Notes: generated by a model from the letters alone, not told the origin. Shown: positions 53,860 to 57,884, counted from the stretch's first letter. The stretch: 64,000 nt of DNA from an uncultured Chthonomonas sp. (GCA_903885605.1 CAISJD010000065.1:1-64000), one strand, 5' to 3'. A program made the numbers and translations.

Positions 53860-56784
53860 TCAGCGCTGTTGGCCGGGCGTCAGCCACTTCTCCAGCGTCA
53901 GCCGGTTGCGGCCCAGCTTGTCGCAGTCGCGCCACTTCCGGTCCACCGAGAGCCCGATCGTCGGGTTCGCCAGGTCGATGGTCCGCGCGTTCATCGAGTT
54001 GCCCCGGTCGGTGATCCTGACCCGCGCCCTATCGTGGTAGATCGAGACCTCGACCGCCAGCACGGTCGCGGCCTCGCTGACCGGCTGGGCCGTAACTTCA
54101 CGGGCCGCCAGCCGGCGTACGACCTCGCGCACCGTCGTGCACGCGGCCAGGCAGAGCACCTCCACGTCGGCCCGGGGCATGGCGGGCATGTGGGTCGAGA
54201 CAAACTGATCGACGTACCCGTCGGTCTGCCCGATGCCCTCCTCGTCGGCGCTTACCTCTACGGCGTCGAACGCCACCAACGAGCGAGCGACATCCCGGTC
54301 GATCACCACAGCCACGCAGGTGAGATCATCGAGCAGCGCGCCGGTGTCGGAGAACTGCTCGACATCCTCGCACACACGGGCCACGACCTCGTCAGCCGAG
54401 AGACCGGCGCACGTGCTGAGGAGGGCCTCCAGGCGCTCCTGCCCGTAGAGCTCCCCGCCCGCGCCGCGCGTCTCGAGCACACCGTCCGATACGGCCACCA
54501 GGATATCGCCCAGCCCTATGGGATAGGAACGCTGAAGGTAGACCTCCGCCTCAACAAACCCCAGTGGCGTGTTCTCTCCCATCAGAGGACGGCACTTGCC
54601 TGATGCGGCGCAGTACTGCAGTATGGCCGGGTGCCCGCAATCCACCACCGTCGCGGACATGGCCGCCATGTTGATCCTGGTAAAGCAGAGCGTCACAAAC
54701 GCCTCGAGGCCGATCAGCTCAGGTGTCAGGGCATGGTGTACCGCGGCCACGATCTCCTCGGGCACCGCCAGCCGGCCATGCAGGTGCAGGTCCTGACTGA
54801 GCCGAGCCATGGCCCTCGAGAAGTGCTCCTTGGTGGCAGCCGCCATCAGGGCGGCTTGCAGGCCTTTACCCATGACATCGCCGACCAGAACATCGACCAT
54901 CGTCGGCGAGTGCTCGATGAAGTCCATGTAGTCGCCGTCGATCCCCTCGGATGAGAGGCTCACGGCGGCTATGGAGAAGCCTGCAAGGTCTGTCGGCGGC
55001 GTCCCGCGCAGGAGGGTCTGCTGGATGCTGGCGCCGATCTTGATATCGCGGTTTCGCGCGGCCTCCCACGTCTGCGCGGTCTCCCGTAGCGCCTTCTCGG
55101 CGGACCGGCGCAGCGTAATGTCCTGGACGAAGACGGCGAGGGCGCCGGCCTCCTCATCGCTGAGGCGGGCCACGCTGACCTCCACCGGGATCAAGCTGCC
55201 ATCGGGCCTTCGCGCCCAGCCCTCGAAGCGCCCGCCGACCCTGTGTTCCAGGAACCGGTCGGGAGGCGCGGGTTCGCCTTCATTGTCCGTCAGGCCGATC
55301 AGTCCCCAGATGCCTCGCTCCCTCGCTGAGGCCGCCGTGCAGCCGAACATGCCCTCCGCAGCGGCATTGACGTCCTCTATCCGGCCGTCGTCGCGAACGG
55401 TCACGACCGCGTTGAACGCTGCGTCCAGTATCGCGGCCTTGCGTGCCTCGGAGCGACGCCGGGCCTCACGATCGGCATACTGCACGGTGTAGTCGCGGTT
55501 CGTGCCTGCCACGCGCACGGCCTTCCCGTGCTCGTTGCGCTCGACCACTGCGCCGCGGCACTGGATCCACCGATAGCTCCCGTCTTTGGCTCGTGCGCGG
55601 AACTCGCCCTCGAAGCCCGGGCTATCGCCCTCGATGTGCTTCTTCAGGGCCAACTCCACCGCGGGCCGATCCTCCGGCTCCATGAGCTCCGCAAGGCCCT
55701 TGCGCTCTAGCGGCATCTCGCCGGACGCAAACCCCAGGATCGCCGACCAGCGCTCATCCACGATGAGCTTGCCGGTCCGCAGGTCCAGGTCCCAGATCCC
55801 CACGTCAGACCCGCGCACGGCCATTTCGAGCTGCAGCCTGCTGGCAGAGAGCTCCTGTTCAGCCCTGTCACGGCGGGCCAGCAGCCCCCGCATCATCAGG
55901 GTCGCGTAGAGGCCCAGGGCCACGAAGACGGCAAGCAGAAGCAACGAACCCGACCAGAGCTGATGAAGCGCGCCCGCACGATCGATGCTGTAGGCGACCG
56001 AGACGGGACGGCCCAGCACGGAAGCGGGGCAGACCGCCGTGATGGCACGCCAGCGAACCTTCCCGAGGCTGACGGTGTTGGTCGCGGTGAACTCGAGGCG
56101 CTGCGCCAGGTTGCGGCGCTCAGCCGCCAGTCCGAGAGCGACATCCTGAGTGGCAGACGCCCCGCGCGCCTCGACAAGCGCCGTGGCGACCCCATCCGCG
56201 TCAATAAGGACGGACATCGCCCGGGAACCGGCCGCCGGCTGCGCCACGCTATCGGCCATTAGGGCGCCGATGTCGATGGCCGCCGTCGCCCGGATGCGCC
56301 TTCGACCCCCTACGGCATCCATGAGCCAGACCCCGGGCCCACGGCCGGCGTGCTCCTCGCCGGGCTTCCGCCGCCGCGTGCTGAAATGGCCCGTGCCGCT
56401 TCGGGAGACGACCACCTGCACACCGTCTGGAGCGCCGACCGTGATGTACCGGATGACGTCCTGATGCCGAATGTAGAACCTGCGGGCTCGGTCCGGAACG
56501 GTGAGGACGAGATCGGGGTCCTGATCGAGCACCGCATCGAAACCGCCCCCGCTGACCTCGCCCCGGAAGTCAGTCTCCAGCATGTCGACGGCGCGCCCCA
56601 AGTCGGCGGCATTGCTGCGCGCCTGTTCCAGCACGTCCTGGTGAACGCGGCTGATCTGGTCAAGCACGAAGGCTACATAGAGGATGACGCCCAGTATCGC
56701 CAGCCCGGCCGTAAACATGACGGCGAACGAGCCACGCGGACGCAGGGGGAGGACCGCAGGAACCGACAGGCCGCGCAACGGCAT
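53860..56784 (-). CDS. Membrane PAS-SpoIIE (PP2C) phosphatase with degenerate C-terminal ATPase-like domain
   Basis: A 974-residue protein. A membrane helix (about 22-42), an extracytoplasmic sensor region and a second helix (about 270-292) are followed by two PAS domains (about 315-430, 440-560) and a coiled coil. A SpoIIE-type PP2C phosphatase (about 590-830) follows with metal-binding GDYMDF, GDVMGKG, VSDGVLE and DDLTC, all intact. The last about 135 residues resemble an anti-sigma-factor ATPase (HATPase_c_2): VLCLAACTTVREVVRRL and VRITDRGNSMN stand where the N-box and DxGxG loop would be, but key Asn and Gly residues are missing. Such phosphatases release sigma factors through STAS-domain proteins. 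The ATG at 56784 shares a base with the upstream stop (TGATG). Confidence 0.85.
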   Translation of the reverse strand: MPLRGLSVPAVLPLRPRGSFAVMFTAGLAILGVILYVAFVLDQISRVHQDVLEQARSNAADLGRAVDMLETDFRGEVSGGGFDAVLDQDPDLVLTVPDRARRFYIRHQDVIRYITVGAPDGVQVVVSRSGTGHFSTRRRKPGEEHAGRGPGVWLMDAVGGRRRIRATAAIDIGALMADSVAQPAAGSRAMSVLIDADGVATALVEARGASATQDVALGLAAERRNLAQRLEFTATNTVSLGKVRWRAITAVCPASVLGRPVSVAYSIDRAGALHQLWSGSLLLLAVFVALGLYATLMMRGLLARRDRAEQELSASRLQLEMAVRGSDVGIWDLDLRTGKLIVDERWSAILGFASGEMPLERKGLAELMEPEDRPAVELALKKHIEGDSPGFEGEFRARAKDGSYRWIQCRGAVVERNEHGKAVRVAGTNRDYTVQYADREARRRSEARKAAILDAAFNAVVTVRDDGRIEDVNAAAEGMFGCTAASARERGIWGLIGLTDNEGEPAPPDRFLEHRVGGRFEGWARRPDGSLIPVEVSVARLSDEEAGALAVFVQDITLRRSAEKALRETAQTWEAARNRDIKIGASIQQTLLRGTPPTDLAGFSIAAVSLSSEGIDGDYMDFIEHSPTMVDVLVGDVMGKGLQAALMAAATKEHFSRAMARLSQDLHLHGRLAVPEEIVAAVHHALTPELIGLEAFVTLCFTRINMAAMSATVVDCGHPAILQYCAASGKCRPLMGENTPLGFVEAEVYLQRSYPIGLGDILVAVSDGVLETRGAGGELYGQERLEALLSTCAGLSADEVVARVCEDVEQFSDTGALLDDLTCVAVVIDRDVARSLVAFDAVEVSADEEGIGQTDGYVDQFVSTHMPAMPRADVEVLCLAACTTVREVVRRLAAREVTAQPVSEAATVLAVEVSIYHDRARVRITDRGNSMNARTIDLANPTIGLSVDRKWRDCDKLGRNRLTLEKWLTPGQQR

Positions 56785-57884
56785 CAGGGCTGCTCGGCAG
56801 CGATAGACCAGGCCGACCAACCGAGGGAGGGCAGCGGCTGAGCGAGGATCACCGCCTGCGTATCACCCACGACGAAGGACGCGCGCCTGGAGCCTTTCCT
56901 CAGGATCTGCTCGGCGGCCGACCTGACCGAGGCGGTCCGCGCCTTCAGAAGGTTGTAGTCATCCGATTGGTACTGGTCGCTTTTGACGCTCTCGGCATAC
57001 CGGTGCTCTGCAAGGAGCGGCATATTGAGCATCCGCAACGCCTTTTCGCCTGCGGAGACGATCACGCCGCCTGGACCGACAAGGAGGGACGCGCCGTCAG
57101 GCGGTATGTGCCTCTCGGTAAGCCTCTGAACTGTGACATCAAGGCCGACCACGCCCTCCATGCGATCCTTGACATAGACGGGCGCGATGCAGGACACCAT
57201 CCAACCACGGCCGGCGGGATCGACGTACGGCGCGTTGACCCAGACCACCTTGCGGCCCGGGTTGTGCTTCGCATCAGCAAGGTAGTAGAAGTTGAACTTG
57301 GGAATGTTCATTTTCGGCTCGTACTGGGCCACTGTATCGAACGGCGGGTAGATCCGGTTCAGCGAGCGGCGCTCATTGTAGTACGATTGGACCACGGCCG
57401 GGTTGGCGCGCGTAACCTTGGTGAGGGCGGGGTTGATCGACTCGGTGAACCAGGTGACGCGCTTGAGGTCGGCATCGATGGGCACGTAGCCGGAGACGAA
57501 GACGGCGGGGGCGCCGTCCTGGACCTTACGGTAGTAGACACCGTTTGAGGCGAACCCGTAGTGCTCCGGCCGGACAGACTTCAGCGTCGCGTCGGCTTTG
57601 CCGTAGCTATCCACTGTGGCCTGGGCAAGCTCCGCCGTGAGTTGCTCGACGGCGGTAATATCGGCCTCGATCTGGGCGGTGACGCGTGCCAGCCGCGCCA
57701 CGGCCTGGGTATCCGTAGATGGCGCCTTCCGGCAACCCGACAGGGGCGCCGCAGCAAGGAGCAGGGCGGTGAGGAACGGATAGGCGCCAGGCGCCTGGGA
57801 CCGGCGGAAGGTGCACCGCCGGGGGGCGGGTGAACGCCCGCCCCCGGCGGCCTCGTAGCTTGCAGTGCCCGTCGGCCCTGTCAT
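56784..57884 (-). CDS. Double-Cache sensor lipoprotein
   Basis: A 366-residue protein with a lipobox LSGC at Cys51 after a hydrophobic stretch (FLTALLLAAAP). The 36-residue n-region is unusually long and the true start may lie further in. A helical segment (about 60-105) leads to a dCache-type sensor with YYNERRSLNRIYPPF, NFYYLADAKHNPGRKVVWVNAPYVDP and MEGVVGLDVTVQRL motifs. There is no kinase, chemotaxis or phosphatase output in the protein. Its stop overlaps the start of the SpoIIE-type phosphatase gene (TGATG), so the likely function is to bind a small ligand outside the membrane and signal through the phosphatase, which is an inference. Confidence 0.8.
   Translation of the reverse strand: MTGPTGTASYEAAGGGRSPAPRRCTFRRSQAPGAYPFLTALLLAAAPLSGCRKAPSTDTQAVARLARVTAQIEADITAVEQLTAELAQATVDSYGKADATLKSVRPEHYGFASNGVYYRKVQDGAPAVFVSGYVPIDADLKRVTWFTESINPALTKVTRANPAVVQSYYNERRSLNRIYPPFDTVAQYEPKMNIPKFNFYYLADAKHNPGRKVVWVNAPYVDPAGRGWMVSCIAPVYVKDRMEGVVGLDVTVQRLTERHIPPDGASLLVGPGGVIVSAGEKALRMLNMPLLAEHRYAESVKSDQYQSDDYNLLKARTASVRSAAEQILRKGSRRASFVVGDTQAVILAQPLPSLGWSAWSIAAEQP

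Follow-up and report, generated by a model that had tools for sequence, protein, structure and literature searches.

The 64,000-nucleotide stretch of DNA analysed here (GCA_903885605.1, CAISJD010000065.1:1-64000; hereafter the window) belongs to a metagenome-assembled genome (MAG; 5.6 Mb, 211 contigs) of an uncultured Chthonomonas sp., and carries two adjoining genes on its minus strand that together probably encode one receptor. The first encodes P0002, a Cache lipoprotein, and the second P0001, a membrane phosphatase of the PAS/PP2C type. The TGA of P0002 and the ATG of P0001 overlap by one base within a shared TGATG. An initial annotation of the window had proposed this coupling of a Cache lipoprotein to a SpoIIE-type phosphatase, and it is confirmed by the coordinates of the open reading frames and by its conservation: the pair and the exact TGATG are kept in all three species examined of this Armatimonadota genus (G000, G002 and G003). 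Stop-start overlaps are common in bacteria, and a single overlap proves little by itself; coupling in one species was therefore rejected as too weak a sign of joint function. The overlap carries weight here because both other species of the genus keep the pair together with the exact TGATG, and because the adjacency of the two genes is kept across phyla.

The distribution of the pair was surveyed in 679 genomes of two phyla, 388 of which belong to the second phylum. The genomes compared were mostly MAGs, the labelled relatives being "uncultured Chthonomonas sp." and "Armatimonadetes bacterium" MAGs, and the reading frames of L075 and L088, both very rich in G+C, and of L108, L112 and L121 were checked separately. 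A first scan, with patterns taken from three near-identical sequences, returned one distant relative, a 48% identical lipoprotein whose gene lies 11 bp ahead of that for a hybrid histidine kinase in a MAG labelled "PVC group bacterium", and this genome was then used as a new centre. In the second phylum the Cache protein was found in 11 of the 388 genomes, in ten as a solo lipoprotein and in one (L083) fused to its own kinase. Downstream of each of the ten solo lipoprotein genes, at -4 to +16 bp and on the same strand, lies the gene of a sensor protein with two transmembrane helices; nine of these partners are histidine kinases, mostly hybrid ones, and the tenth is a PAS-PP2C-HATPase protein.

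The enzymes thus differ, and the ectodomain in front of them is of one family. Wherever the solo lipoprotein was found, this ectodomain family stands beside it (in 10/10 genomes of the second phylum and in 3/3 of its own phylum), and the two are present in one and the same set of 13 genomes out of the 679, adjacent and on one strand in every case (-4 to +16 bp). A hidden Markov model built from the ten second-phylum partner ectodomains, with that of the window excluded, matched the P0001 ectodomain with an E-value of about 1e-24, against values of at least 60 for control sensor ectodomains. With some 5-7 candidates scored per genome, the partner ectodomain was found in no other of the 679 genomes of both phyla; it is also absent from L083, the fused Cache kinase, and from four Cache kinases that Proteobacteria carry on plasmids. 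Fused Cache histidine kinases of the P0002 family (for example L072:4641-6392) are present on plasmids of Klebsiella, Enterobacter and Leclercia, and on the Klebsiella plasmid that was inspected the gene lies near insertion sequence elements.

The 13 pairs have unrelated gene neighbours and differing output domains, namely a histidine kinase, mostly hybrid (nine), a PP2C-kinase (one) or a PP2C phosphatase (three). The conserved unit is therefore the lipoprotein plus the ectodomain, and the enzyme behind it changes. Finding the Cache domain mostly with other partners had been named beforehand as an observation that would speak against a receptor pair; this applies to the output domain but not to the ectodomain. 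The occurrence of the pair in other genomes supports the two-protein receptor that had been suggested for P0002 and P0001, and on this genomic evidence, from which we infer contact between the two proteins, the suggestion is strongly supported. A rival view, that P0002 and P0001 are adjacent in an operon but do not interact functionally, would be in keeping with the frequency of short overlaps and with the housekeeping genes in the gene neighbourhood of the pair; it is made highly improbable, and brought close to refutation, by the strict co-occurrence of the two, always adjacent, in 13/13 genomes of two phyla, among unrelated neighbours and with different outputs.

The description of P0002 as a Cache lipoprotein without any output domain was borne out by structure prediction. 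Its AlphaFold2 model (pLDDT 84.8, pTM 0.84) has a double Cache (dCache) fold with a long N-terminal helix, as in dCache sensor domains, and a Foldseek search with this model gave 131 PDB matches at E<=0.001 with dCache domains in the top ranks, the best being the sensor domains of CtaA, PctA and Tlp3 (E about 1e-8). The predicted fold is thus unambiguously that of a dCache domain. Pfam matches stayed below the gathering scores (dCache_1, E=8e-4, 20 bits against a cut-off of 45; MCP-like_PDC_1, E=1.4e-4, 23 against 27), and membership is therefore claimed from the fold and from profile homology, not from a Pfam threshold.

P0001 combines two transmembrane helices flanking an ectodomain with two PAS domains, a PP2C domain and a C-terminal RsbW-like domain (Table 1). 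Pfam matches were obtained for the PAS (PAS_3, E=1e-20; PAS_9, 5e-15) and SpoIIE/PP2C (1.5e-35) domains, and the PP2C domain has the metal-binding aspartates of SpoIIE/RsbU-type phosphatases. The initial annotation had thus correctly described a membrane-bound PAS/PP2C protein, and had missed the RsbW-like domain. It had also assigned to the phosphatase an extracytoplasmic region of its own that differs from the Cache domain of P0002. Such a region is present, but the difference has to be qualified: the ectodomain, which had no match in Pfam or PDB sequence searches and was placed by fold comparison, has a predicted structure (pLDDT 81) whose closest matches are dCache domains, so that it appears to be a second dCache-like fold.

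Since both proteins have this predicted fold, the ligand might be bound by the P0001 ectodomain, with P0002 acting as a structural subunit or a ligand-delivery protein. The pattern of conservation makes this unlikely: the partner ectodomains are 15-22% identical across phyla with one invariant residue, as against 35-48% identity and 45 invariant residues in the 13 members of the P0002 family, which is expected if P0002 holds the specific site. The most conserved stretch of this family across phyla is the presumed pocket region (FYYLAD, PYVDPAGRGW, GLDVTV), and Tyr220 and Asp249 of P0002 align with ligand residues of PctA (PMC10104139). The dCache_1AA motif (a carboxylate-binding Arg with Tyr, Trp/Tyr and Asp) is incomplete in P0002, in which the inferred alignment places Asn198 opposite the carboxylate-binding Arg126 of PctA. 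Because of this replacement, an amino acid is not predicted as the ligand; an amine-like compound is no more than a guess.

By its signal peptide and a lipobox cysteine that has the same place in 13/13 family members, P0002 is predicted to be a lipidated bacterial lipoprotein. In E. coli, lipoproteins without Asp at position +2 are sorted to the outer membrane. None of the 13 members has Asp at this position, which by this rule, possibly invalid in this phylum, would place P0002 in the outer membrane, and an outer-membrane lipoprotein could, instead of sensing a ligand, be a sensor of envelope stress or surface contact like RcsF or NlpE, with the Cache fold serving as a binding surface. We regard this as improbable, given that conservation is highest in the presumed pocket region and that two residues of P0002 correspond to ligand residues of PctA.

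Where translation of P0002 begins in the window is uncertain, since a perfect G+C hairpin lies downstream of its sole in-frame ATG. No ATG, GTG or TTG occurs in frame between this ATG and the lipobox cysteine, and the orthologues in G003 and G002 have ATGs nearer the cysteine. The inverted repeat, located between the upstream gene and the mature part of P0002, is conserved in G003, and G002 has an element that resembles it; in the window it is a single copy (0 expected), which rules out that it is one of many repeats there. It is possibly a terminator or attenuator.

Table 1. Position of the features of the P0002/P0001 locus in the window
Feature	Coordinates	Strand	Basis or remarks
Lipoprotein P0002, 366 aa	57884..56784	-	open reading frame
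Signal peptide region of P0002, from the sole in-frame ATG	57735..57884	-	start codon uncertain
Perfect G+C inverted repeat GGGGGCGGG-N6-CCCGCCCCC in the P0002 leader	57822..57845	not applicable	
Lipobox cysteine Cys51	57732..57734	-	lipobox LSGC
dCache ligand-binding domain (predicted), without output domain	56787..57731	-	AlphaFold2 and Foldseek
TGATG stop-start overlap	56782..56786	-	the same in G000, G002 and G003
Membrane sensor phosphatase P0001, 974 aa	56784..53860	-	transmembrane helix-ectodomain-transmembrane helix-PAS-PAS-PP2C, plus C-terminal RsbW-like domain
Transmembrane helix 1 (residues 19-41)	56662..56730	-	hydropathy; helix in model
Ectodomain (residues 42-271), predicted dCache-like fold, conserved partner of P0002	55972..56661	-	homology, co-occurrence, fold
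Transmembrane helix 2 and start of linker	55876..55971	-	hydropathy and model
PAS domain 1	55498..55764	-	Pfam
PAS domain 2	55114..55410	-	Pfam
SpoIIE/RsbU-type PP2C domain	54307..54897	-	metal-binding motifs intact (GDYMDF, GDVMGKG, DCGH, SDG, LDDLT)
Degenerate RsbW-like GHKL domain (P0001 residues 835-968)	53881..54282	-	alignment; purifying selection

The C-terminal domain of P0001 aligns with the RsbW-like domain that is fused to all 12 relatives of the phosphatase. The catalytic Glu and the Mg-binding Asn are kept in these relatives, as well as in a stand-alone RsbW encoded on contig C133 of the same genome; in all three species of the genus, P0001 has lost both residues and the G2 box, and its C-terminal domain is therefore not an RsbW/SpoIIAB serine kinase by these features. 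Omega was estimated per domain, and the values for the degenerate domain (0.20-0.29) are similar to those for the PP2C domain (0.23-0.29) and indicate purifying selection; those for the Cache domain and the ectodomain are 0.09-0.13 and 0.13-0.17, respectively. Because it is under purifying selection, the degenerate domain is probably still used, perhaps for docking.

The initial annotation had proposed that the pair controls partner switching, had correctly remarked that no STAS gene lies next to it in the window, and had left the target open. There is now a strong candidate, the STAS protein encoded at C133:950-1288, which keeps the DSSG serine and which was used as the query for its family. 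Firstly, among the 31 genomes of the class, relatives of the P0001 PP2C domain are present in ten and a C133-type STAS in 12, including all ten (Fisher p about 1.5e-6, uncorrected for phylogeny). Secondly, the class has 12 PP2C relatives outside the genus, each of them with a C133-type STAS gene at a distance of 443-582 bp, an association of the closest relatives with one STAS family that supports the proposed partner switching, and the PP2C domain of P0001 falls in the clade of these relatives (support 99/98), apart from the REC-PP2C protein encoded on contig C170 of its own genome. Thirdly, in G423, which belongs to the other phylum, one contig carries a STAS gene at 4.7 kb, homologous polysaccharide genes, a Cache lipoprotein gene and a PP2C-HATPase gene at 16.5 kb, and in G016 genes for a PP2C-kinase and a STAS protein are followed by genes that resemble the C133 operon by N-terminal sequence. 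Based on this linkage, clade and these two loci, the C133 STAS is most likely the protein dephosphorylated by P0001. Each genome of the genus has one such PP2C and one such STAS, which adjoins an intact stand-alone RsbW-type kinase gene (C133:510-953 in the window's genome), so that all the parts of a partner switch (a STAS protein with a phosphorylatable Ser, an RsbW-type kinase and a PP2C phosphatase) are present, at two loci.

In the window's genome, C133 carries a polysaccharide operon encoding a phosphodiesterase-like protein, a putative ligase, a flippase, a Wzc-like protein and glycosyltransferases, a gene neighbourhood from which polysaccharide is the likely output of the switch. No sigma factor was seen at the C133 locus; in G003 a BTAD/AAA regulator adjoins the RsbW/STAS genes. 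Large AAA regulators are also encoded near C133-type STAS genes at L122:2403-5444, L110:6300-9383, L118:6462-8936 and L121:1386-3803, some of them with TPR and those of L122 and L110 with a BTAD domain; such regulators are candidates for the downstream partner of the switch. In G016, G017 and G013, an H-NOX (HNOB) gene directly precedes the genes for a PAS-PP2C-RsbW protein and a STAS protein (L117:1388-5568, L118:2600-6411 and L119:2084-5871). The HNOB assignment was tested with Pfam in L117; the proteins of L118 and L119 have a similar N-terminus. HNOBA was found in L117 and L119. These loci may be an NO/O2-sensing version of the same partner switch.

The phosphatase of a genuine receptor might act on another STAS protein, such as the RsbV of C170, as the genome encodes several and that of C133 lies on a different contig. 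We consider this doubtful, because C170 encodes a REC-PP2C, an RsbW and an RsbV of its own and the other 12 members of the P0001 PP2C clade are all linked to a C133-type STAS; as it has its own phosphatase, C170 is disfavoured as the holder of the P0001 target. This region (L030:5137-13595) holds a second partner switch, with genes for a histidine kinase, whose distant Cache relative is 35% identical to P0002, and for the REC-PP2C protein, then two long genes, and then RsbW and RsbV; the site in this RsbV is ASAG instead of DSSG.

Considered as a whole, the evidence is best explained by one receptor whose PP2C domain acts on the C133 STAS and thereby controls polysaccharide, which we hold to be a probable explanation. 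The lipid-anchored dCache domain of P0002 would bind a periplasmic signal and act on the dCache-like ectodomain of P0001, its lipid anchor substituting for the first transmembrane helix of the fused homologues. A conformational change, passed on through transmembrane helix 2 and the two PAS domains, would set the activity of the PP2C domain, which would dephosphorylate the DSSG serine of the RsbV-like STAS that the neighbouring stand-alone RsbW-type kinase would phosphorylate. The RsbW-like tail of P0001, its catalysis lost, would probably be a docking or regulatory surface, and the STAS/kinase switch would likely control the polysaccharide genes of C133, possibly via the adjacent BTAD/STAND-type regulator. 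Several points weigh against this explanation. With about 5-7 candidates scored per genome, additional weak copies of the ectodomain may have escaped detection; the STAS gene is unlinked to the phosphatase gene in the window's genus; gene neighbourhood is the only ground for the polysaccharide output; G005 and G006 carry the STAS without this PP2C, so that another phosphatase can serve it there; and further STAS proteins are encoded in the window's genome, among them that of a second RsbW/RsbV pair next to the REC-PP2C on C170.

Parts of this scheme resemble known systems. Like LuxP-LuxQ, the pair would comprise a ligand-binding protein outside the cytoplasm that acts on a membrane sensor with a double Cache ectodomain; the periplasmic part of LuxQ is counted among the double Cache domains (PMC4822843). 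Unlike LuxP, the accessory protein is lipid-anchored and has the predicted fold of a dCache domain and not that of a solute-binding protein (SBP), and one of the outputs is a PP2C phosphatase. SBP-stimulated receptors are a recognised class, and phosphatases are absent from the receptor types listed for it (PMC9602780). A literature search, largely without subscription papers and thus weak evidence of absence, found no solo Cache lipoprotein receptor. With respect to the dCache sensor domains of chemoreceptors and kinases (PctA, CtaA and Tlp3), P0002 is predicted to share their fold and differs in standing alone on a lipid anchor, besides the pocket residues discussed above.

On the output side, the kinase/phosphatase protein SypE of Vibrio fischeri controls, via serine phosphorylation, the single-domain STAS protein SypA of a polysaccharide locus (PMC4517449, PMC8256260), and P0001 would likewise be a phosphatase that controls a STAS protein at a polysaccharide locus. 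SypE combines both activities in one soluble response regulator, whereas P0001 would be a membrane receptor that has a lipoprotein as a subunit; its kinase-like domain is degenerate, and the kinase is encoded separately. In Nostoc punctiforme the phosphatase, the STAS protein and the kinase are separate proteins (HmpU, HmpV and HmpW), which have been linked to motility and polysaccharide (PMC8256260). Their description includes no Cache lipoprotein, and P0001, by contrast, is unlinked to its presumed STAS. By analogy, the pair would thus join the sensor logic of LuxP-LuxQ and the SBP-driven receptors to the output logic of SypE-SypA and HmpUVW.

With somewhat less assurance, we favour the view that the pair represents a class of modular, two-protein receptors that spans at least two phyla and in which a lipid-anchored dCache sensor with its dedicated dCache-like ectodomain feeds histidine kinase or PP2C partner-switching outputs; that the genus took over a phosphatase whose relatives receive REC- or H-NOX-associated inputs; and that its RsbW-like domain became a dead docking domain after a separate kinase had arisen. 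The finding would also provide a pseudo-kinase domain that is embedded in a phosphatase and appears to be under selection, 13 naturally occurring pairs as a genomic test set with which the interface could be mapped, and a concrete, testable route that leads from a signal in the periplasm to a partner switch at a polysaccharide locus, the input signal of such switches being usually unknown. If this view is correct, the pair shows how a detachable sensor can be exchanged in bacteria between outputs of the kinase and the phosphatase kind, and what is conserved is the sensor-ectodomain pair, not the enzyme.

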